In this document: positions 1-29,366 of the stretch, piece by piece | How positions within the stretch are numbered: the first letter of the stretch is position 1 | How the letters are laid out: each line of letters starts with the position of its first letter | From: an uncultured Burkholderiales bacterium | GTDB lineage: Bacteria > Pseudomonadota > Gammaproteobacteria > Burkholderiales > Burkholderiaceae_C | NCBI GenBank assembly: GCA_903864315.1 | Contig: CAIPFK010000078.1 | Location: 1-35,308 of the forward strand | DNA length: 35,308 bases | Direction of reading: 5' to 3' | Made by a program: the position numbers and the translations under genes | Notes under the pieces: generated by a model | Database searches by the model: none | The model's input: the letters and a program-made list of their open reading frames with translations, nothing else | Told to the model about the DNA's origin: nothing

Positions 1-939
1 CGATGTGCCGGCTGAAAGAGCTCGAGAGTTCAAATTCGGTTTGGTGGCAGTGACACTGGGCGGCACCAGCAATGTGGACGACGCCTGAGAGTTCGCCCCG
101 GACGAGGGGAGCGCATTGGAAGCAACAGTTTTGCCCTCACCCCCAACCACCGAGTTGGCCACGGAGCCCGGAACGTCTTGTCGGGCCAATTCCACTTTGC
201 TCGTGGCATTGAGAGGCGAGCTCACCGCGTTGTTTGGTTTTTGGCCAAATGCTTCATTGCTCAACGGCTTATCAAGGGGGGTTGCAAGGATCTTGGGATT
301 TTGGGCTTGTAGCCACTCAGTCAATGCATCTTCCTTGACCACGGAAGACTTCGTCGTCGTTTGTGGGGTGGGCGGTGCTGGAGGGTTGGGTCTTGGAGTC
401 GCGCCATTCACACCGGAGTCTTGCATCTTTTGTGCAATCAAGGCCTCCAGCGGATCAATCTCTTGGAGTGGGTACAAATCAAGCACCAGTCGGTAACCAT
501 ACTGCACTTGGTCGGCACGGTTTGAGCTCAATGCCGACAAGTTGAACACCTGTGGCTTGACATCTTGGCGAAGGTCAAAGACCAATCTCACCACGCCTGG
601 TGAAAACTGACCCACCCTCACACCCATGATGAAGGGGTCATCGGATTTGATTTTTCCAACCAGTTCTTTGAGGGCTGGGTTCAAGTCCACCCCGCTGATA
701 TCCAAGGCCAAGCGCGCTGGATTGGAGACCAAAAAAGGTTGTGACCCCAAGGGCACATCGGACTCAATGGTCACCCGGGTGTACTCTTTGGCAGGCCACA
801 CGCGCACCGCCATGATGTTGGCACCCCAGGCCAGTTCTTGAGCGCCTAGGAGCAACACCAAGGCGCCGGACTGAACAAAGCCACGGCGATTGAGTTGTCC
901 TTTGGTGACATTGGCCTTGAACAAACGACTGGAGTCCAT
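1..939 (-). CDS. amiC: N-acetylmuramoyl-L-alanine amidase, AmiC type (N-terminal 313 residues, partial)
   Basis: Periplasmic amidase that cuts the bond between muramic acid and the stem peptide during daughter-cell separation. Only the N-terminal part is visible; the zinc amidase domain lies beyond base 1. The reading frame is open from an ATG at 937-939 to the window edge. Residues about 17-40 hold a twin-arginine type signal (LNRRGFVQSGALVLLLGA), as in other AmiA/AmiC proteins exported by Tat. Residues about 43-160 look like an AMIN domain (septal targeting), with the typical ending YGYRLVLDLYP. After that comes a Pro/Ser/Thr/Ala-rich linker of at least 140 residues. The start overlaps the tsaE stop by one base (TGATG), so the two are almost certainly co-transcribed and translationally coupled. 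The function rests on the AMIN-plus-Tat architecture and the neighbourhood, since the catalytic domain is not seen. Confidence 0.88.
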   Translation of the reverse strand, partial: MDSSRLFKANVTKGQLNRRGFVQSGALVLLLGAQELAWGANIMAVRVWPAKEYTRVTIESDVPLGSQPFLVSNPARLALDISGVDLNPALKELVGKIKSDDPFIMGVRVGQFSPGVVRLVFDLRQDVKPQVFNLSALSSNRADQVQYGYRLVLDLYPLQEIDPLEALIAQKMQDSGVNGATPRPNPPAPPTPQTTTKSSVVKEDALTEWLQAQNPKILATPLDKPLSNEAFGQKPNNAVSSPLNATSKVELARQDVPGSVANSVVGGEGKTVASNALPSSGANSQASSTLLVPPSVTATKPNLNSRALSAGTS

Positions 940-1385
940 CACTCAAAATCCCAAACCGTTGGGTCAAAGTGCAAAGTAGCACTCCTGCTTTCATCCAAAT
1001 TCACCGCCAGCTCAATCTCAAGACTGGGTGTGGGCAGCAAGCCCATCACCCGCTCAGGCCACTCATAGACTTTGAGCCCCGAAGACACAAAAACATCCCT
1101 CAACCCCGCCTCCTCCCATTCCAGAGGATCCCTCATTCGATAAAAATCCATGTGCCAAATGTCCAAAGGAATCTGACCTTGTTGGCCTTGGTAAGTCTCC
1201 ACCAAAGCGTAGGTGGGGCTCTTGATGACGCCCGTCACGCCCAACGATCTGAGCAAATGACGAACCAAGGTGGTTTTGCCCGCACCCAAGTCCCCTGTCA
1301 AGGAAATTTGGGCATTCAAAAGACTGGGGTGGCGCGCCAATTGCTCTGCGAAAACTTGGGTCTCGCCCTCATCGGTCCATTTCAT
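939..1385 (-). CDS. tsaE: tRNA t6A37 biosynthesis ATPase TsaE
   Basis: ATPase subunit of the complex (with TsaB and TsaD) that makes N6-threonylcarbamoyladenosine at position 37 of ANN-decoding tRNAs; cytoplasmic. The P-loop GDLGAGKTT is near residue 30, followed by the family segments SPTYALVETY and WHMDFYRM, and the length (148 aa) is normal. The ATG at 1383-1385 gives the usual N-terminus. A TTG at 1410-1412 would add nine residues and has an AGGTG five bases upstream, so it is a real alternative. The gene is divergent from queG and followed directly by amiC with a one-base overlap. Confidence 0.92.
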   Translation of the reverse strand: MKWTDEGETQVFAEQLARHPSLLNAQISLTGDLGAGKTTLVRHLLRSLGVTGVIKSPTYALVETYQGQQGQIPLDIWHMDFYRMRDPLEWEEAGLRDVFVSSGLKVYEWPERVMGLLPTPSLEIELAVNLDESRSATLHFDPTVWDFE

Positions 1386-2718
1386 GCATACTGTGCGCTT
1401 GGCGATATTCAAAGGGACACCTATTTTGCTAGATTCATCGGCATTGTTAGACCAAATCCAAGCTTGGGGACAAGAGCTTGGATTTTCTCAAATCGGCATC
1501 TCCAGCATTGACCTCTCGAGTGCCCAGGCCCCATTGTTGGATTGGCTTGAGCGTGGGTTCCATGGCGAAATGGCTTACATGAAGCGACACGGCCTGTTGC
1601 GCACACAACCCGTGTCCTTGCACCCAGGCACCATGAGCATTGTGACGGCACGAATGAACTACTTGCCTGCGCTGAGTTCAACCAAGACCTCTAGACCCAG
1701 CCCGACCAACACTGACAAGCCAAGAGATTTTGTACGATTGCATTCTAAAGAGTTTTCCCAAGCAAACCAGGAAGCTGAACCGATTCAAGACCTTTTTCCA
1801 AGCATGACCCCGCAATCCGAATCTGCTGGCACCTGGACTTCGGTTGAGTGGGAAAGACTCCATTCCCCCCAGGAGGCGGTGGTGTCGCTTTACGCTCGCG
1901 GGCGAGACTATCACAAGGTGATCAAGCAACGACTGGAGATGTTGACGGAAAAAATTCAACATCGGCTGGGCCCATTGGGCCACCGTGTCTTCACCGACTC
2001 CGCTCCCGTGATGGAGGTTCAACTGGCCACCCAATCGGGGCTTGGGTGGCGCGGCAAACACACCCTGGCGCTGCATCGCCAAGCAGGTTCGATGTTTTTT
2101 TTGGGTGAAATTTTCATCAACCAAGACCTCACGCAAGCTTTGAGCGATTCAGAGCGGGAACGCTACGCCCGCGACTCCAGCAACCATTGTGGCAGTTGCC
2201 AATCTTGCATCGAGGTGTGTCCAACACAGGCCATTGTGGCGCCCTATGTTCTCGATGCAAGGCGGTGCATCTCTTACTTGACCATTGAGCACAAGGGCTC
2301 CATCGATGAGGCTTTGAGGCCCCTGATGGGCAACCGCATTTATGGCTGCGATGACTGCCAACTCATTTGTCCTTGGAACAAATTTGCCCAAAGAGCAGTC
2401 GTTGCCGATTTTCAAGAGAAAGAGCACTTGAAAAACCCAAGTTTGCTGCAACTGTGGGACTGGCAAGAAGAGGATTTTTTGCGACTCACCGAGGGTCAAG
2501 CGATTCGAAGAATTGGCCATGAGCAGTGGTTGAGGAACTTGGCCATTGCGCTGGGCAACGCTTTGCGGCAAACCGTGGAGTCGCAACAGCAACAAGATCT
2601 CCAGCAGGCCCTGTCTCGACGCATCGAAGATCAAAGCCCCTTGGTGCGCGAGCACGTTCAATGGGCCTTGGCGCAAGGATTGCCCTCAAGGCCTGCAGCC
2701 CATGCGTCCTTGGATTGA
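1384..2718 (+). CDS. queG: Epoxyqueuosine reductase QueG
   Basis: Cobalamin-dependent iron-sulfur enzyme that reduces epoxyqueuosine to queuosine at the wobble base of GUN tRNAs, the last step of queuosine synthesis. Visible are the N-terminal segment WGQELGFSQIGI, the catalytic-domain segment YARGRDYHK, two ferredoxin-type 4Fe-4S motifs (HCGSCQSCIEVCP and CDDCQLICPWNK) and a C-terminal HEAT-like segment (AIRRIGHEQWLRNLAIALGN). The start is uncertain: ATG 1384 (444 aa) has no Shine-Dalgarno, whereas TTG 1426 (430 aa) has AAAGGGA at 1411-1417 and gives an N-terminus closer to the family length. About 50 extra polar residues are inserted before YARGRDYH. The ferredoxin-RluA fusion gene begins 5 bases after the stop. 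Confidence 0.94.
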   Translation: MHTVRLAIFKGTPILLDSSALLDQIQAWGQELGFSQIGISSIDLSSAQAPLLDWLERGFHGEMAYMKRHGLLRTQPVSLHPGTMSIVTARMNYLPALSSTKTSRPSPTNTDKPRDFVRLHSKEFSQANQEAEPIQDLFPSMTPQSESAGTWTSVEWERLHSPQEAVVSLYARGRDYHKVIKQRLEMLTEKIQHRLGPLGHRVFTDSAPVMEVQLATQSGLGWRGKHTLALHRQAGSMFFLGEIFINQDLTQALSDSERERYARDSSNHCGSCQSCIEVCPTQAIVAPYVLDARRCISYLTIEHKGSIDEALRPLMGNRIYGCDDCQLICPWNKFAQRAVVADFQEKEHLKNPSLLQLWDWQEEDFLRLTEGQAIRRIGHEQWLRNLAIALGNALRQTVESQQQQDLQQALSRRIEDQSPLVREHVQWALAQGLPSRPAAHASLD

Positions 2719-2723
2719 AGACC

Positions 2724-3764
2724 ATGCCGACGATCCCAAGCCTCAATCAACCCATCAGCCCACCCATCGGCCCACCCAACCATGCACTCAACAGTGCAGC
2801 AAGCTTGGGGCAAGGCCCAAGGGCACAGGACTTCACCATCACGCTGCAAAACCGTCAACTGTCTTGGTCATGCCATGCTCACGAGAGCGTGGTCCATAGC
2901 GCCAAGCGCCAGGGCATTGAATTGCCCACCAGTTGTCAAAACGGCACCTGCCGCACGTGCTTGATCCCGTCATCCAAGGGTGGCCTAGAACACCTGATCG
3001 ACTGGCCAGGACTGAGCTTGGAGGAAAAGCAGCAAGGCGCGCTTTTGCCGTGTGTAGCTTGTGCGACGTCCGACCTAGAAGTGCACGATGCGCACTGGAG
3101 GGACGCCATCTTTGAGCAAGCCTTTCACCTGCTGCATGAAGACTGCGACTTGTTGGTGCTCAACAAACCCAGTGGACTTTTATCGGTCCCAGGCAAAGGA
3201 GTGGACAAAATCGACAGTCTGTCGCACCGTGTTCAGCAGTTGCACCCCAACGCATTGGTCATTCACCGCCTTGACCAAGCCACATCCGGCCTCATGCTCA
3301 TGGCGCAAAACCCCAATGCGCAACGAGACGTCTCGCATCAATTTGCCAAGCGAATGGTTGACAAGCGCTACTTGGCAAAAATCAAGGCCAACCTCTCACC
3401 CAGTGATGAATGGCAAACCATCGATGCACCGATTTATGCCGACTGGTCGCTGCGCCCAAAGCGCATCGTTCATTCGCTCGGACAACCAAGCCAAACGCGT
3501 TGGCGTGTGCTTCATTCAAGCGGTGGATTTTCTTGGCTGGAGGTTCAACCCCTCACGGGCCGCACTCACCAAATACGGGTTCACTTGAGTCACATGGGGT
3601 GGCCCATTGTGGGTGACCGCATGTATGCTCCCGAGTCGGTGCAATCCCTCAGCGAGAGACTACTCCTTCATGCTTGGAAAATCTCCCTCAAGCACCCCCT
3701 CACCGAAGAGGCGTTGTTCTTTGTGGCTCAACCGCCCGAATCCCTGGGGGATTCTTTCATTTAG
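2724..3764 (+). CDS. rluA: Fusion of a [2Fe-2S] ferredoxin domain and RluA-type pseudouridine synthase
   Basis: The C-terminal part (about residues 130-346) is an RluA-type pseudouridine synthase. It has NKPSGLLSVPGK near the start, the catalytic-Asp motif HRLDQATSGL (Asp184), and GRTHQIRVHLSHMGWPIVGD. By family it makes pseudouridine at tRNA U32 and 23S rRNA U746. The N-terminal part (about residues 35-122) is a plant-type [2Fe-2S] domain with Cys71, Cys76, Cys79 and Cys110 in the pattern C-x4-C-x2-C-xn-C (GIELPTSCQNGTCRTC). E. coli RluA has no such domain. The ATG at 2724 lies 5 bases after the queG stop; a longer open frame upstream overlaps queG and is ignored. The role of the ferredoxin domain is unknown; passing electrons to QueG is my inference. 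There are no in-frame stops between the two domains, so the fusion looks real. Confidence 0.9.
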   Translation: MPTIPSLNQPISPPIGPPNHALNSAASLGQGPRAQDFTITLQNRQLSWSCHAHESVVHSAKRQGIELPTSCQNGTCRTCLIPSSKGGLEHLIDWPGLSLEEKQQGALLPCVACATSDLEVHDAHWRDAIFEQAFHLLHEDCDLLVLNKPSGLLSVPGKGVDKIDSLSHRVQQLHPNALVIHRLDQATSGLMLMAQNPNAQRDVSHQFAKRMVDKRYLAKIKANLSPSDEWQTIDAPIYADWSLRPKRIVHSLGQPSQTRWRVLHSSGGFSWLEVQPLTGRTHQIRVHLSHMGWPIVGDRMYAPESVQSLSERLLLHAWKISLKHPLTEEALFFVAQPPESLGDSFI

Positions 3765-3872
3765 CGCTTGACTGGGCCTCCAAACTGGGGTCTGTCTGGA
3801 GCACTCATGAAGCTCAATTGGGTTAGACTTTGTTGAACTGTGTAAATTTTTAATTGTCAGAAGGACGTTGAT

Positions 3873-5054
3873 ATGCGTGAAGTCGTCGTCGTGAGCGCTT
3901 TAAGAACTGCCATTGGCACCTTTGGCGGAAGTTTAAAGGACACTCCCCCAAGCGCACTGGCCACCACGGTGGTCAAAGAGGCCATTCAAAAAGCGGGGAT
4001 CTCGGCCAGTGACGTGGACCAAGTGGTCATGGGACACGTCATCAACACCGAACCCAAGGACCTCTACCTCTCGCGCGTGGCAGCCATTCAAGCCGGGTGC
4101 GATAACCGCGTCACCGCCTTCAATGTCAACCGCTTGTGTGGCTCAGGGCTTCAAGCGCTGGTTTGTGCTGCACAGTCCATCATGCTGGGTGACACCCAAA
4201 TCGCAGTGGCAGGCGGAGCAGAAAACATGACTCGAGCGCCGTTTCTCAATGCCGCTCAACGCTTTGGTCAACGCATGGGAGACGTTCAAATCGTGGACAT
4301 GATGATTGGCGCCTTGCACGACCCCTTTGAAAATATCCACATGGGGGTGACCGCCGAGAACATCGCCAAGAAATGGGGCATCACCCGGCTTGAGCAAGAC
4401 GCATTGGCCCTGCAAAGCCACCAGCGTGCCCAGCGAGCGATTGCTCAAGGCTATTTCACCCATCAAATCGTCCCCATCACCCTCAAAACCCGCAAAGGCC
4501 CAGTGCAGTGGGCCAGCGACGAGCACTTGCGCATGGACGCCAAAGCAGAGGATTTCTCGTCGTTAAAGCCCGTGTTCATCAAAGACAATGGCACCGTCAC
4601 AGCGGGCAACGCATCCGGCATCAACGACGCCAGTGCCGCCTTGGTCTTGATGGACAGCGAAGTCGCCAAAGCCAGACACTTGAGGCCCATGGCTCGCTTG
4701 GTGAGCCATGCCCACTCCGGCGTTGAAGCCGCTTACATGGGCATTGGGCCCGTGCCTGCCAGCCAAGCCGCACTTCAAAAAGCGGGTCTATCGGTCAACG
4801 ACTTGGATGTGATCGAGGCCAACGAAGCCTTTGCAGTTCAAGCTTGCGCGGTGATCAAGGATTTGGGGTTGGATCCAGCCAAGGTCAACCCCAATGGGTC
4901 CGGGATTTCGCTGGGGCATCCGATTGGCGCCACTGGCGCCTTGATCACCGTCAAGGCTTTGCATGAGCTCGAGCGCATTCAAGGCCGCTATGCATTGGTG
5001 ACGATGTGCATTGGCGGCGGACAAGGGATTGCAGCGATTTTCGAGCGACTCTAG
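3873..5054 (+). CDS. bktB: Acetyl-CoA C-acyltransferase (thiolase), BktB-like
   Basis: Thiolase that condenses or cleaves acyl-CoAs (acetoacetyl-CoA or beta-ketovaleryl-CoA), acting in polyhydroxyalkanoate precursor supply or beta-oxidation. At 393 aa it has the full family length. It shows the nucleophilic Cys in NRLCGSGLQAL, the HEAF-like segment as NEAFAVQAC, the catalytic His in GISLGHPIGATGA, and the second Cys in MCIGGGQGIAAIFE. From memory the sequence is closer to Cupriavidus BktB than to PhaA, which suggests use of longer or odd-chain substrates; this is a judgement from recall. The start has AAGGA eight bases upstream (3861-3865). The 108 bases before it presumably carry its own promoter, but I see no convincing -35/-10 pair. 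No phaB or phaC is in the window. Confidence 0.93.
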   Translation: MREVVVVSALRTAIGTFGGSLKDTPPSALATTVVKEAIQKAGISASDVDQVVMGHVINTEPKDLYLSRVAAIQAGCDNRVTAFNVNRLCGSGLQALVCAAQSIMLGDTQIAVAGGAENMTRAPFLNAAQRFGQRMGDVQIVDMMIGALHDPFENIHMGVTAENIAKKWGITRLEQDALALQSHQRAQRAIAQGYFTHQIVPITLKTRKGPVQWASDEHLRMDAKAEDFSSLKPVFIKDNGTVTAGNASGINDASAALVLMDSEVAKARHLRPMARLVSHAHSGVEAAYMGIGPVPASQAALQKAGLSVNDLDVIEANEAFAVQACAVIKDLGLDPAKVNPNGSGISLGHPIGATGALITVKALHELERIQGRYALVTMCIGGGQGIAAIFERL

Positions 5055-8133: not shown

Positions 8134-8140
8134 GTGCTTG

Positions 8141-8301
8141 GTTTAGGCAACCAGTCGCCTAAACATCAGCATTTCTGCTCGGGCTTTGCGCCGGTGTTAC
8201 CACCTGGTTTTTGCGCCCATTTTTTGTTCCCCGGTCTCTTACTGGTTGCCCTTTTGAACGGCAATGATGACCGATCCATGCGCCGGACAAGGCGCTCCAC
8301 T
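8141..8301 (+). promoter_or_regulatory. Structured 5' leader of rhlE
   Basis: GTTTAGGC (8141-8148) and GCCTAAAC (8157-8164) form a perfect 8-bp hairpin with an 8-base loop. GGCAACCAGT (8146-8155, loop plus part of the stem) is exactly complementary to ACTGGTTGCC (8241-8250); the core AACCAG can also pair with CTGGTT at 8204-8209. Just before the start codon GCGCC (8280-8284) and GGCGC (8291-8295) form a hairpin that takes up the AAGG at 8289-8292, the only Shine-Dalgarno-like sequence. Two more GCGCC copies lie at 8188 and 8213. These pairings are seen in the sequence; a regulatory role is inference. Confidence 0.5.
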
Positions 8302-10182
8302 ATGAAATTTGAAGAACTCAATTTGGCTCCTGCCATCTTAAAAGCCATCCAAGAACAAGGCTACGAAAACCCCACGCCCGTTCAAGAACAAGCCATCCCC
8401 ATTGTCCTCACAGGTCAAGATCTGTTGGCCGGGGCACAAACAGGAACCGGCAAAACCGCTGCGTTCACCCTGCCCATGCTGCACAAGCTGACCATGTCTC
8501 GCAGCGTGCCCAATAAATTCGGGGTCTACGGCATCCGCGCCCTGGTCCTCACCCCTACCCGTGAATTGGCCGCTCAAGTCGAAGAGTCCGTGAGAACCTA
8601 TGGCAAATATTTGCAACTGAGCTCAACCGTGATTTTCGGTGGCGTTGGCATGAAGCCTCAAATTGATCGCCTCAAAGGCGGCATTGATATTTTGGTGGCC
8701 ACGCCAGGCCGTTTGCTTGACCTCCAACAACAAGGGTATGTGGATTTGGGCACCATCCAAATGCTGATCTTGGACGAAGCCGATCGCATGCTGGACATGG
8801 GCTTTATCCATGACGTCAAGAAGATTTTGGCCCTGATTCCTGCAGAAAAGCAAAGTCTTTTGTTTTCCGCCACCTTCAGCCAAGAGATCAAAGACTTGGC
8901 GCAAAATCTCCTCAAAAATCCCCAAAGCATTCAAGTCACTCCTCCCAACACCACGGTGCAGCGCATCAAACAGCTCGCGCACCCGGTTGGACGTGGCAAG
9001 AAAAAAGCCCTGCTCGCTCACATCATTCAAACGCGAAACTGGAGTCAAGTGCTGGTCTTTACTCGCACCAAATTTGGCGCCAATTCAGTGGCTGACTATT
9101 TGAACAAACAAGGCATCAGCGCCATGCCCTTGCACGGCAACAAAAGCCAATCGGCCAGAACCCAAGCGCTGGAAGGCTTCAAGAGTGGAGACGTGCGCGC
9201 CTTGGTCGCCACCGACATTGCGGCGCGCGGGATTGACATTGACGAATTGCCCCACGTCGTGAATTATGAAATCCCCAATGTCTCTGAAGACTATGTGCAC
9301 CGCATTGGACGCACAGGCCGCGCTGGCTCCGATGGAGAAGCGGTGAGCTTGGTCTCCTTGGACGAAGAGGGCTTCATGCGCGACATTGAACACTTCACCC
9401 ATCAAACCATCGAAGTCGAAATGGTTGAGGGCTTTGGCCCAGAGCCCGACGAGAAAGCCGAGCCCATTGCCATGGGTCGTCAGACGATTTGGGGTGGCAT
9501 TGGTCGCGCCCCTTCCCGAGACGTGATGGCAGCTGCTGCCAAGGCAGCGCGCTTTGAAATGATGGAGCGCATCAAGGACAAGAAACTGGCCAGCCCCAAC
9601 AAAGCTCGCCCGTCACAAAACAATGGCCCCGCCAGGAGCTCTCGCCCCTCTAGGCCCAATGGAGACGTCAACCGCGAACGCGTGTTCGATCCCAATCAAG
9701 CCCCCAGCCCCTATGCGAGAGGCTCGAACCAAGGCGCACCTCGCGACGGCGCTCACCCCAACCACAGACCCGGTGGCCCAGGACGTGGTGCTCCTGCCAG
9801 AGGCAACGAGCAGCGCGGCAGCTTCAAGCCCCGTGGCCCGGCCCGCCAAGGACAATCCCAACCCCGCGAGGGCGCGCACGATGTCAACCATGTGCCACAA
9901 GCGCCCCGTGCACACATGATGGACGAGGATTACCAGCCGCGCGAAAACGCCCATCTGGGAACCCACAACGGGGTGAATGCCTTTGGTCATAAAAATCAAA
10001 ACAAAGTCGCTCGCACACCCGACCCCACCCGCACCAGCGTCGACCTCATGAGCGAGAGACGCGGTGGCGGCGGTGGCGCCAATCGACCCCGAGGCCCCAA
10101 GCCTGCTGGCGGTGGATTTGGTGGCAAACGCAGTGGTGGCGGAGGCGGCGGCGGCGGTGGTCGGGGTGGATTCGGCCGGTAA
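8302..10182 (+). CDS. rhlE: ATP-dependent RNA helicase RhlE (DEAD-box)
   Basis: DEAD-box RNA helicase that remodels rRNA during ribosome assembly and mRNA during decay; cytoplasmic. The 626 residues contain the Q motif (GYENPTPVQEQAI), motif I AQTGTGKTAAF, Ia PTRELA, motif II LDEADRMLDMGF, motif III FSATF and motif VI HRIGRTGRAG. After the core (about residue 400) comes a long disordered tail rich in Arg, Pro and Gly, ending in a poly-Gly/RGG stretch, typical of RhlE in this order. ATG 8302 gives the normal start MKFEELNLAP; upstream frame is judged to be leader. The long structured leader suggests post-transcriptional control. It lies convergent to the 2-hydroxyacid dehydrogenase gene. Confidence 0.95.
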   Translation: MKFEELNLAPAILKAIQEQGYENPTPVQEQAIPIVLTGQDLLAGAQTGTGKTAAFTLPMLHKLTMSRSVPNKFGVYGIRALVLTPTRELAAQVEESVRTYGKYLQLSSTVIFGGVGMKPQIDRLKGGIDILVATPGRLLDLQQQGYVDLGTIQMLILDEADRMLDMGFIHDVKKILALIPAEKQSLLFSATFSQEIKDLAQNLLKNPQSIQVTPPNTTVQRIKQLAHPVGRGKKKALLAHIIQTRNWSQVLVFTRTKFGANSVADYLNKQGISAMPLHGNKSQSARTQALEGFKSGDVRALVATDIAARGIDIDELPHVVNYEIPNVSEDYVHRIGRTGRAGSDGEAVSLVSLDEEGFMRDIEHFTHQTIEVEMVEGFGPEPDEKAEPIAMGRQTIWGGIGRAPSRDVMAAAAKAARFEMMERIKDKKLASPNKARPSQNNGPARSSRPSRPNGDVNRERVFDPNQAPSPYARGSNQGAPRDGAHPNHRPGGPGRGAPARGNEQRGSFKPRGPARQGQSQPREGAHDVNHVPQAPRAHMMDEDYQPRENAHLGTHNGVNAFGHKNQNKVARTPDPTRTSVDLMSERRGGGGGANRPRGPKPAGGGFGGKRSGGGGGGGGGRGGFGR

Positions 10183-27401: not shown

Positions 27402-29195
27402 TCAATTGCTTTTGGGTTTGAAGCTTTTGGAGGGAGCACCCTTGTGGGCTGCCGCCTTGTGGGGTGCAGCGCCGCGAGGTGCTTGTCCACGCGGAGCAAA
27501 CACATCACGGGGTGCGAAATCACGGGGTGCATTGCTGCGAGGCGCTGCGTCTCTAAAAGCACCATCCCTTGGTGCGGCATCTCTGTACCCACCTTCACGG
27601 GGAGCGGCATCTCGGAAGCCGCCTTCACGGGGTGCACCGCTTCTGGCGCCTGCAAATCCATCACGGTGTCCACCGCCACCGCCACCAAAGGGTCGACCAC
27701 GGCCTCTGGGAGGCGCACCACGGCGAGAATCATCAAAGCCACGCGGCCTCTCGCTGCGTTGCGAGGGCTCCAAGCCTGCGATCACCTCTGTGGGCAAAGG
27801 CTGACGGGTGAAGTGTTCAATGTCTTGAATTTTGCGACGATCGCGGAACTCGGCAAATGTGACCGCCAAGCCGTCGCGTCCAGCGCGTCCTGTGCGTCCG
27901 ATGCGGTGAGTGTAGTCCTCGCTCTTCATCGGCAAGCCATAGTTGAACACGTGCGAGATGGAGGGCACATCGATGCCCCTGGCGGCCACGTCGGTGGCGA
28001 CCAAAAACTGAACTTGCCCATTGCGAAGCGCCATCAACCGACGGTTTCTCAAGCCTTGGCTCAAAGCGCCGTGCAACGCAACTGCAGAAAAACCCGACTG
28101 CTGCAAATCAGCGGCCAAACCATCGCACTCGACTTGGGTGCTGGCAAAGACGATGGCTTGCTCAATGCTGGTGTCTCGCAGCCAATGGTCCAAGAGTTTT
28201 CTTTTGTGCTGCGAATTGTCGGCCCAAAAGAGCAACTGTTTGATGTTGTTGTGACGCTCTTGGGGAGTGTCGATTTGAATGTGCTGTGGCTTTCTCATCA
28301 CACGAGCGGCCAAGCTTTGAATGCGAGGTGCAAAGGTGGCGCTGAACATCATGGTTTGACGGCGCTCAATGGTGAGTTGATTGATTTCGGCCAAATCGTC
28401 CGAGAAACCCAAGTCCAACATCCGATCGGCCTCATCAACGACGAGAAACTGAACGTCCTCGAGCTTGATGTGCATGGAGCGTTGTAGGTCAATCAAACGA
28501 CCAGGCGTCGCCACCACGAGATCGGCATTTTGTAGCTTGGCAATTTGTAGTGCGTAAGGCATACCACCCACCACAGTGGCGACACGAATGCCTTTGCAAT
28601 GCTTGACAAAGCCAATGGCGTCGTGTGCCACTTGTTGAGCGAGCTCGCGGGTGGGGCACAGCACCAAGGCGCCGGGTGTCGCCGCCTTGAAATGACGGGG
28701 GTTGGTGGGGTCCTTGCGCTTGGCACGCTTTGGAATCGGTGTGCCTGCAGCCTGTGCCGCAGCGACTTGGGCATCAAATGCCTGGGCTTCGGCCACTTCT
28801 CGCTCGCGGGCTTGTTGGAGCAAGGTTTGGATCACGGGCAACAAGAATGCTGCCGTTTTACCGCTACCGGTCTGGGATGACACCATCAAATCGGTGTGGC
28901 CACCGTCGAGCGAATTTTTCATCGCCAAGGGAATGACCTTGACTTGAACGGTGGTGGGCGCGGTGTAGCCGAGGTCAAAGACCGCTGCCAAGAGTTCGCG
29001 CGTCAAACCCAATTCTTGAAATGGGTTGGGCTTGACTTCTTTGGGGGTGACGACTTCAGGTGCAGCGTCAACACTGACTGGAGACAAGCCTTCTCCATCT
29101 TGCTCGTGGAGCAAGGGGGCCTTGGCGTGATCTTCACGGGGGTTTGATTCAGAATTGGCAATAGCGTTGCTATCGATCTCGAGAGACTCGTACAT
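27402..29195 (-). CDS. DEAD-box RNA helicase (second, RhlE/SrmB-like)
   Basis: A 597-residue DEAD-box helicase. After an acidic N-terminal extension of about 60 residues come the Q-motif region (PNPFQELGLTRELLAAVFDLGYTAPTTVQ in parts), motif I SSQTGSGKTAAF, PTRELAQQV, motif II VVDEADRMLDLGF, motif III FSATFAP and motif VI HRIGRTGRAGRDG. An insertion of about 40 residues, rich in Ala/Glu then Lys/Arg (AQAFDAQVAAAQAAGTPIPK), separates motif I from Ia. The tail is Arg/Gly/Pro-rich and contains four imperfect ten-residue repeats. ATG 29195 has GGAG six bases upstream. It has its own promoter and a structured leader of about 170 nt; likely roles are ribosome assembly or mRNA decay, perhaps in the cold. 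Confidence 0.93.
   Translation of the reverse strand: MYESLEIDSNAIANSESNPREDHAKAPLLHEQDGEGLSPVSVDAAPEVVTPKEVKPNPFQELGLTRELLAAVFDLGYTAPTTVQVKVIPLAMKNSLDGGHTDLMVSSQTGSGKTAAFLLPVIQTLLQQAREREVAEAQAFDAQVAAAQAAGTPIPKRAKRKDPTNPRHFKAATPGALVLCPTRELAQQVAHDAIGFVKHCKGIRVATVVGGMPYALQIAKLQNADLVVATPGRLIDLQRSMHIKLEDVQFLVVDEADRMLDLGFSDDLAEINQLTIERRQTMMFSATFAPRIQSLAARVMRKPQHIQIDTPQERHNNIKQLLFWADNSQHKRKLLDHWLRDTSIEQAIVFASTQVECDGLAADLQQSGFSAVALHGALSQGLRNRRLMALRNGQVQFLVATDVAARGIDVPSISHVFNYGLPMKSEDYTHRIGRTGRAGRDGLAVTFAEFRDRRKIQDIEHFTRQPLPTEVIAGLEPSQRSERPRGFDDSRRGAPPRGRGRPFGGGGGGHRDGFAGARSGAPREGGFRDAAPREGGYRDAAPRDGAFRDAAPRSNAPRDFAPRDVFAPRGQAPRGAAPHKAAAHKGAPSKSFKPKSN
27516..27635 (-). repeat. Four imperfect 30-bp coding repeats (APRxGxFRDA)
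   Basis: The helicase tail reads APREGGFRDA, APREGGYRDA, APRDGAFRDA and a diverged APRSNAPRDF in tandem. The DNA unit is 30 bp, so copy-number change keeps the frame. Further APR motifs follow in the tail. Confidence 0.8.
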
Positions 29196-29366
29196 GTTTA
29201 CTCCACCCACCAATCGGTGAGGGCTCCATCAAAGGTTGTTGACAACATCAACCTTCAAACAGAGAACAACGCTTGATGATTAAAGTTAATCCAAGCGATT
29301 TTGGTAATCCAATTCGGAATACCCAAGGTGTGAGGTAGATGCGCGAGTTCGTCATCTAGGACGAAC
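29196..29366 (-). promoter_or_regulatory. Structured 5' leader of the second DEAD-box gene
   Basis: On the minus strand the inferred transcript begins with GTTCGTC (29360-29366), a 6-base loop and GACGAAC (29347-29353), a perfect 7-bp hairpin. TAGATG in that loop region can also pair with a CATCTA shortly downstream. A second perfect stem, AAGGTTG with CAACCTT (29232-29238 and 29249-29255), stands about 40 bases before the start codon. No gene is seen in this region. Regulation is inference. Confidence 0.5.

Follow-up and report, generated by a model that had tools for sequence, protein, structure and literature searches.

Introduction

The closest described counterpart of the enzyme half of the protein considered here is RluA from E. 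coli. In the available text of a published report (PMC9481147), loss of this pseudouridine synthase is described as abolishing psi746 in 23S rRNA along with psi32 in four tRNAs, and the RluA of P. putida is said to have similar targets. For its other half, the counterparts are the plant-type [2Fe-2S] ferredoxins, represented by TIGR02008 and PDB 3ab5 and characterized by a CX4CX2C...C motif. Additionally, a plant-type center is known from the reductive dehalogenases, which are placed in one class with the epoxyqueuosine reductase QueG. The accessible portions of two papers (PMC10463259, PMC7585037) describe a form of these enzymes in which a fused domain carrying a plant-type CxxxxCxxC-xn-C [2Fe-2S] center serves as the electron feed. 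They also report that NpRdhA, a relative of QueG, has been driven in vitro by spinach ferredoxin together with flavodoxin reductase, and that artificial electron donors have been employed. In the self-sufficient reductive dehalogenase JtRdhA, as outlined in the available part of PMC10463259, a plant-type [2Fe-2S] center feeds a cobalamin enzyme of class III, which also comprises the epoxyqueuosine reductases. There the center is fused to the cobalamin enzyme and to an FMN reductase module, whereas the one described below is fused to RluA.

The locus in question lies in a window of 35,308 nucleotides, which is the whole stretch of DNA that was analyzed, from an uncultured Burkholderiales bacterium (contig CAIPFK010000078.1). 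The encoded protein has the catalytic domain of E. coli RluA (PDB 2i82), from which a ferredoxin domain is absent, and it displays the CX4CX2C...C motif of the plant-type ferredoxins in a domain that is joined to an RNA enzyme. No description of a pseudouridine synthase carrying a fused redox domain was found in the literature searched, which comprised titles and the openings of abstracts. The sole match for both domain names, PMC3063783, names Fer2 and RluA-type domains in unrelated proteins, as judged from the part of its text that was available. The novelty of the protein lies in a new and conserved combination of known domains.

Architecture of the fusion gene

Shown in Table 1 are the coordinates of the fusion gene, its domains, and its neighbors. 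One continuous open frame encodes a Fer2 domain followed by a complete RluA domain, and the fused architecture claimed in the first-pass annotation is real. Both Pfam matches exceed their cut-offs (35.4 bits versus 21 for PF00111 at residues 40-115, and 113.5 bits versus 26.8 for PseudoU_synth_2, PF00849, at residues 142-290), the arrangement recurs in 13 genomes, and both halves are under purifying selection. The four cluster cysteines and the catalytic aspartate stand at the positions that the annotation had assigned to them, and all five residues are invariant in the 13 aligned fused proteins. No flavin module was detected in the protein by Pfam. An AlphaFold model of the fusion, calculated from five sequences, displayed a mean pLDDT of 54; it was too poor to reveal domain contacts and was set aside.

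Table 1 Features of the ferredoxin-RluA locus (window coordinates)
Feature	Position	Strand	Evidence and remarks
tsaE, t6A37 pathway	939..1412	-	PF02367 and TIGR00150 over cut-off; divergent from queG
queG, epoxyqueuosine reductase	1429..2718 (start approximate)	+	TIGR00276, 426.8 bits (cut-off 200); directly upstream of the fusion, same strand
Fer2-RluA fusion gene, 346 aa	2724..3764	+	ATG start; a TTG at 2715 that overlaps the queG stop may be used instead
plant-type [2Fe-2S] ferredoxin domain, aa 40-115	2841..3068	+	PF00111; Cys 71, 76, 79, 110
RluA pseudouridine synthase part, aa 129-346	3108..3761	+	Asp 184; Pfam match aa 142-290; closest solved sequence 2i82
thiolase gene, downstream of rluA	3873..5054	+	PF00108/PF02803

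A gap of five bases had been annotated between queG and the fusion. The stop codon of queG does indeed end at position 2718 with an ATG following at 2724, but the two genes may overlap by way of an earlier start, given that a TTG at 2715-2717 overlaps the queG stop as TTGA. A start codon that overlaps the queG stop is available in all 11 of the fusions linked to queG (-3 in six of them and -13 in five), and QueG and the fusion are thus probably translationally coupled in this lineage. In the two fusions that lie behind miaA (G023 and G359), the available starts likewise overlap the upstream stop. A scan of positions 1300-4000 for sigma-70-like promoters yielded no site, an uninformative result in light of a chance mean of 1.2. 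The thiolase gene is found downstream of rluA also in relatives that carry queG elsewhere.

Identity of the two halves

The N-terminal half has both the Fer2 domain and the four-cysteine motif of a plant-type [2Fe-2S] ferredoxin. Its score with TIGR02008, 35.6 bits, lies below the cut-off of 81.15 bits, as do those of three free relatives (49.0, 53.0, and 54.1 bits). The free ferredoxins of the bacterial family are encoded by separate genes of ~95-110 residues, and sequence comparison indicates that the fused half descends from them. Identity to the free ferredoxin of one genome of the genus (G003) is 38-46% for five fused halves, with the four cysteines invariant in 10 aligned sequences. Note that the fused halves are less acidic than the unfused proteins, with mean net charges of -1.7 (n=13) and -4.2 (n=35), respectively (Mann-Whitney p 2e-4, kinship not corrected), and the surface may therefore have been turned to another task. 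The ferredoxin profile has one strong match per fusion genome (13 of 13), namely the fusion itself, which as the only such copy found must do the job of the free protein.

The closest solved sequence to the C-terminal half is that of the ribosomal large subunit pseudouridine synthase A (PDB 2i82; residues 136-335, E 2.2e-45). As expected for an RluA-type pseudouridine synthase, PseudoU_synth_2 scores over its cut-off and the catalytic Asp 184 is contained within an HRLD motif. With the RluA subfamily model TIGR00005, the protein scores 187.3 bits versus a cut-off of 192.7, and two unfused relatives are also below (172.0 and 174.7 bits). The best-scoring specific NCBIfam model, ahead of those for RluD, RluC, and TruC, is the psi32/psi746 RluA equivalog PRK10158, with 161.4 bits versus a cut-off of 286; the two unfused relatives score 163.5 and 164.5 bits. 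Among named organisms, Variovorax and Acidovorax provide the nearest RluA matches. Five further matches to PseudoU_synth_2 occur in the same genome, and for the four that were scanned the top models are RluD, RluC, RluB, and RsuA, with the RluD and RluC scores below the cut-offs of those specific models. On the basis of these comparisons, the best reading of the C-terminal half is an RluA pseudouridine synthase of the tRNA psi32/23S psi746 type.

Distribution, conservation, and selection

Strong matches to the ferredoxin profile, defined as those with E at most 4.6e-28 (the next match lies at 7.3e-21), occur in 44 of the 84 genomes of the genus and amount to 45 copies. Thirteen of these copies, in 13 genomes, are fused to rluA in one open frame, and the fused proteins are as little as 47% identical to that of the window. 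An assembly or frameshift error as the source of the fusion is ruled out by its presence in 13 genomes. Raw pN/pS ratios over 11 pairs range from 0.12 to 0.35 for the ferredoxin half and from 0.10 to 0.37 for the RluA half, and from 0.07 to 1.63 for the short linker; the ratios are rough because pS is high in most pairs. Both halves are under purifying selection.

Full-length profile searches covered 398 other genomes from the order, 397 from the phylum, and 298 from the family, three of the latter being members of the genus. No uninterrupted fusion other than that of the window was among the strong matches listed, namely those down to E 1e-70 or 1e-80; the samples overlap, and a fusion with a much-diverged RluA would escape such a search. 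In three family genomes, a single match spans both parts with a stop codon between them, two being members of the genus (G120 and G011) and one belonging to a genus designated g103 (G229). Seven matches starting before model position 77 were considered as possible fusions elsewhere, and all seven proved by tblastn to contain rluA and no ferredoxin.

A tree of RluA was constructed from 66 of the 68 rluA places of the genus and from three additional rows, g103, Variovorax, and Acidovorax; one place was missed by the motif filter (G343) and one was cut by a contig end (G010). The 13 fusions fall into three supported groups of 9, 2, and 2 members in a tree whose backbone lacks resolution. On the best tree the fewest label changes number two, and one origin is possible. 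Three genomes without the ferredoxin (G001, G004, and G364, with completeness values of 64, 84, and 100%, respectively) sit inside the linked clade, which indicates that the ferredoxin can be lost.

Gene order around the ferredoxin and rluA

In addition to the 13 fused copies in the genus, 27 copies share the strand of rluA and stand 11-77 bp ahead of it, four lie ~1.4 kb before it, and in the one remaining case the ferredoxin and rluA are on different contigs (the gaps were measured between match ends, not gene ends). The ~1.4 kb gap in the four is filled by an MFS gene. The order ferredoxin-MFS-rluA, with miaA just upstream, is observed in G019, G370, G356, and G355; the rluA of G019 fell below the search threshold and was taken from a reading of the locus. 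In two loci from two other genera (L187 of g138 and L216 of g88), the ferredoxin gene is followed by an MFS gene on the opposite strand and then by rluA, and in g103 the ferredoxin adjoins rluA, unfused, in three of three loci. Within the genus, the ferredoxin gene tracks rluA and not queG. The rluA gene is present in all 44 genomes that have the ferredoxin versus 23 of the 40 that do not (Fisher p 3.5e-7, kinship not corrected), a pattern that might reflect a functional link with RluA. For genomes that are at least 95% complete, the corresponding values are 29 of 29 versus 9 of 11 (p 0.07). One genome, G371, contains two ferredoxin-rluA pairs (L133 and L134); its bin is 85% complete with 6% contamination, and thus one of the pairs may be foreign.

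In a tally of the first-listed genome from each of 140 other genera of the family, 137 of which gave a match, a strong ferredoxin match was observed in 74. Forty loci from 38 other genera, chosen from the strong ferredoxin matches and covering up to ~4 kb on each side (three are less than 8.5 kb where contigs end), contain a GNAT gene in 10 cases, a Dus gene in 9, a YgjP-like gene in 9, and a DUF808 gene in 8. These family names rest on one example each, and the Dus example scores best as DusC, below the cut-off. Only the two MFS-containing loci noted above, L187 and L216, have rluA at an identity of at least 50%. With its varied neighbors in so many genera, the ferredoxin therefore has a life apart from RluA.

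Two arrangements recur among these free ferredoxins. In L196, L198, L204, and L209, the ferredoxin gene is positioned head-to-head with a gene for a YgjP-like metallopeptidase, and a DusC-like Dus gene is next in three of the four, such that this is a second ferredoxin neighborhood with a tRNA-modifying enzyme. In L187, L190, L206, L216, and L222, the ferredoxin gene and a GNAT gene are divergently oriented and DUF808 follows, in a recurrent block.

Candidate roles of the ferredoxin half

The first-pass annotation had put forward the ferredoxin half as a possible electron donor to QueG. In the form considered here, the donor would be made from the same mRNA by way of the overlapping start and stop codons, with RluA as a mere carrier. 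Such a role is in our estimation unlikely, although several observations speak for it. Eleven of the 13 fusions lie directly behind queG, each with an overlapping start available, and the annotated link between a [2Fe-2S] domain and genes for anticodon-loop modification is borne out by this queG-ferredoxin-rluA order. Additionally, all 13 fusion genomes contain queG; a fusion in a genome lacking queG, which the annotation had named as evidence against its proposal, was seen in 0 of 13. Given that a plant-type [2Fe-2S] domain supplies electrons to one form of the reductive dehalogenases of QueG's class, as stated in the available text of PMC10463259 and PMC7585037, the donor role would be chemically reasonable, but the analogy is weakened by NpRdhA, whose activity in vitro was not supported by its own neighboring ferredoxins according to the accessible part of PMC10463259. 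The adjacency of fusion and queG proposed by the annotation breaks down in the remaining two fusions, those behind miaA. More telling are the unfused copies, for a dedicated donor would be expected to follow queG also when unfused. For none of the 32 in the genus is queG closer than 6 kb on the contig (in 14 of them queG is on the same contig, at the nearest 6.2 kb away, and for 18 there is no queG match on the contig), and queG is likewise absent, within up to ~4 kb, from all 40 loci of the 38 other genera. Strict linkage of the ferredoxin to queG is ruled out by these two sets. QueG is found, furthermore, in 34 of the 40 genomes of the genus without the ferredoxin and in 42 of the 44 with it (the two lacking QueG are 80-83% complete), and thus QueG in general needs no such ferredoxin. 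With 44 of the 45 copies fused to or near rluA, the notion that the ferredoxin exists for QueG is not supported. From the gene orders, the place of the fusion behind queG looks derived, by rearrangement.

The loop rule of RluA (U32, A36-A37-A38) agrees with that of MiaA and MiaB and not with that of QueG, and MiaB, the radical SAM enzyme responsible for ms2i6A37, needs a reductant. The similarity of the loop rules makes MiaB a rival acceptor, to which the ferredoxin half would bring electrons at tRNAs that RluA also recognizes. We consider this highly unlikely. The miaA gene lies directly upstream of the ferredoxin in five genomes (G019, G370, G363, G356, and G355) and of the fusion in two, G023 and G359, that of G023 scoring over the cut-off; in four genomes without the ferredoxin (G015, G017, G006, and G007), a gene that appears miaA-like by eye directly precedes rluA. 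Still, miaA is beside the ferredoxin in a minority of the ferredoxin-bearing genomes. The tRNAs recovered from the fragmented genome of the window include Leu-CAA, which has U32 and A36-A38, and the Q-type tRNAs for Asp and His, which do not fit the loop, but this set excludes Phe, Cys, Trp, Tyr, and Asn, and one loop is unreadable. MiaE as the acceptor is also unlikely; PF06175 scored over its cut-off in none of the 84 genomes (one weak match, 22.9 versus 27 bits), in a search that lacked a positive control since 14 control genomes also gave no match. Alternatively, RluA may be tuned by the [2Fe-2S] center, acting as a sensor of redox state, a possibility also raised in the annotation, or of iron, or else as an element for structure or RNA binding. 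The long-lasting fusion, the tight linkage to rluA in unfused relatives, the presence of rluA in every ferredoxin genome, and the less acidic surface of the fused form are all in keeping with such a role. It is nevertheless decidedly unlikely in our judgment, for the free ferredoxins lie away from rluA in 38 of the 40 loci from other genera, 23 genomes of the genus retain rluA but lack the ferredoxin, and the AlphaFold model gives no structural support. That the fusion is neutral, arising from loss of a stop codon between neighbors with no new function or interaction, is extremely improbable. It would have formed easily given the gene-order series, and the ferredoxin can be lost, as in the three genomes inside the linked clade, but it has been kept in 13 genomes over a deep divergence with purifying selection on both halves. 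Note that selection on the halves alone cannot separate a neutral fusion from one with two jobs.

Origin and function of the fusion

We favor, with somewhat better than even confidence, a bifunctional protein that was formed stepwise from a ferredoxin-MFS-rluA arrangement and that keeps two jobs. The graded series, in which the genes are apart, adjoining, or fused, argues for a stepwise origin with the following presumed direction. Starting from the order ferredoxin-MFS-rluA, loss of the MFS gene would have placed the ferredoxin gene just before rluA. Loss of the stop codon and of the frame break would then have allowed the two to be read as one, and the fused unit would have moved behind queG in the lineage of the window. 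In such a protein, the RluA half would still isomerize uridine without redox chemistry. The ferredoxin half, with its putative cluster bound, would still act as an electron carrier in trans, presumably reduced by a ferredoxin/flavodoxin reductase and passing its electrons to a partner enzyme, the candidate acceptors being QueG or MiaB. Several points count against this bifunctional protein. The fusion has been kept down to 47% identity, a hint of more than chance adjacency, rluA is present in 44 of 44 ferredoxin genomes, the fused halves are less acidic, the pN/pS ratios are rough, and no partner has been found.

A further proposal, which we regard as quite unlikely, sees the ferredoxin, tethered to RluA, as a mobile source of electrons for modification of the anticodon loop, with RluA docking on that loop and the [2Fe-2S] half feeding QueG or MiaB. 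If true, modification at positions 32, 34, and 37 would be coupled to the redox state of the cell. Regardless of the acceptor, the genus holds separate genes, close neighbors, and fusions together, and it thereby provides a natural series for testing a dedicated ferredoxin in RNA modification.

Two other observations concern further genes of the window. The matches to the QueG of the window are split in two around residues 82-134 in many relatives, and the stretch beyond the first piece is thus variable or inserted. Farther along the window, at positions 8134-10182 and 27402-29213, are two proteins that, when read by eye, are DEAD-box helicase-like with long glycine/arginine-rich tails.
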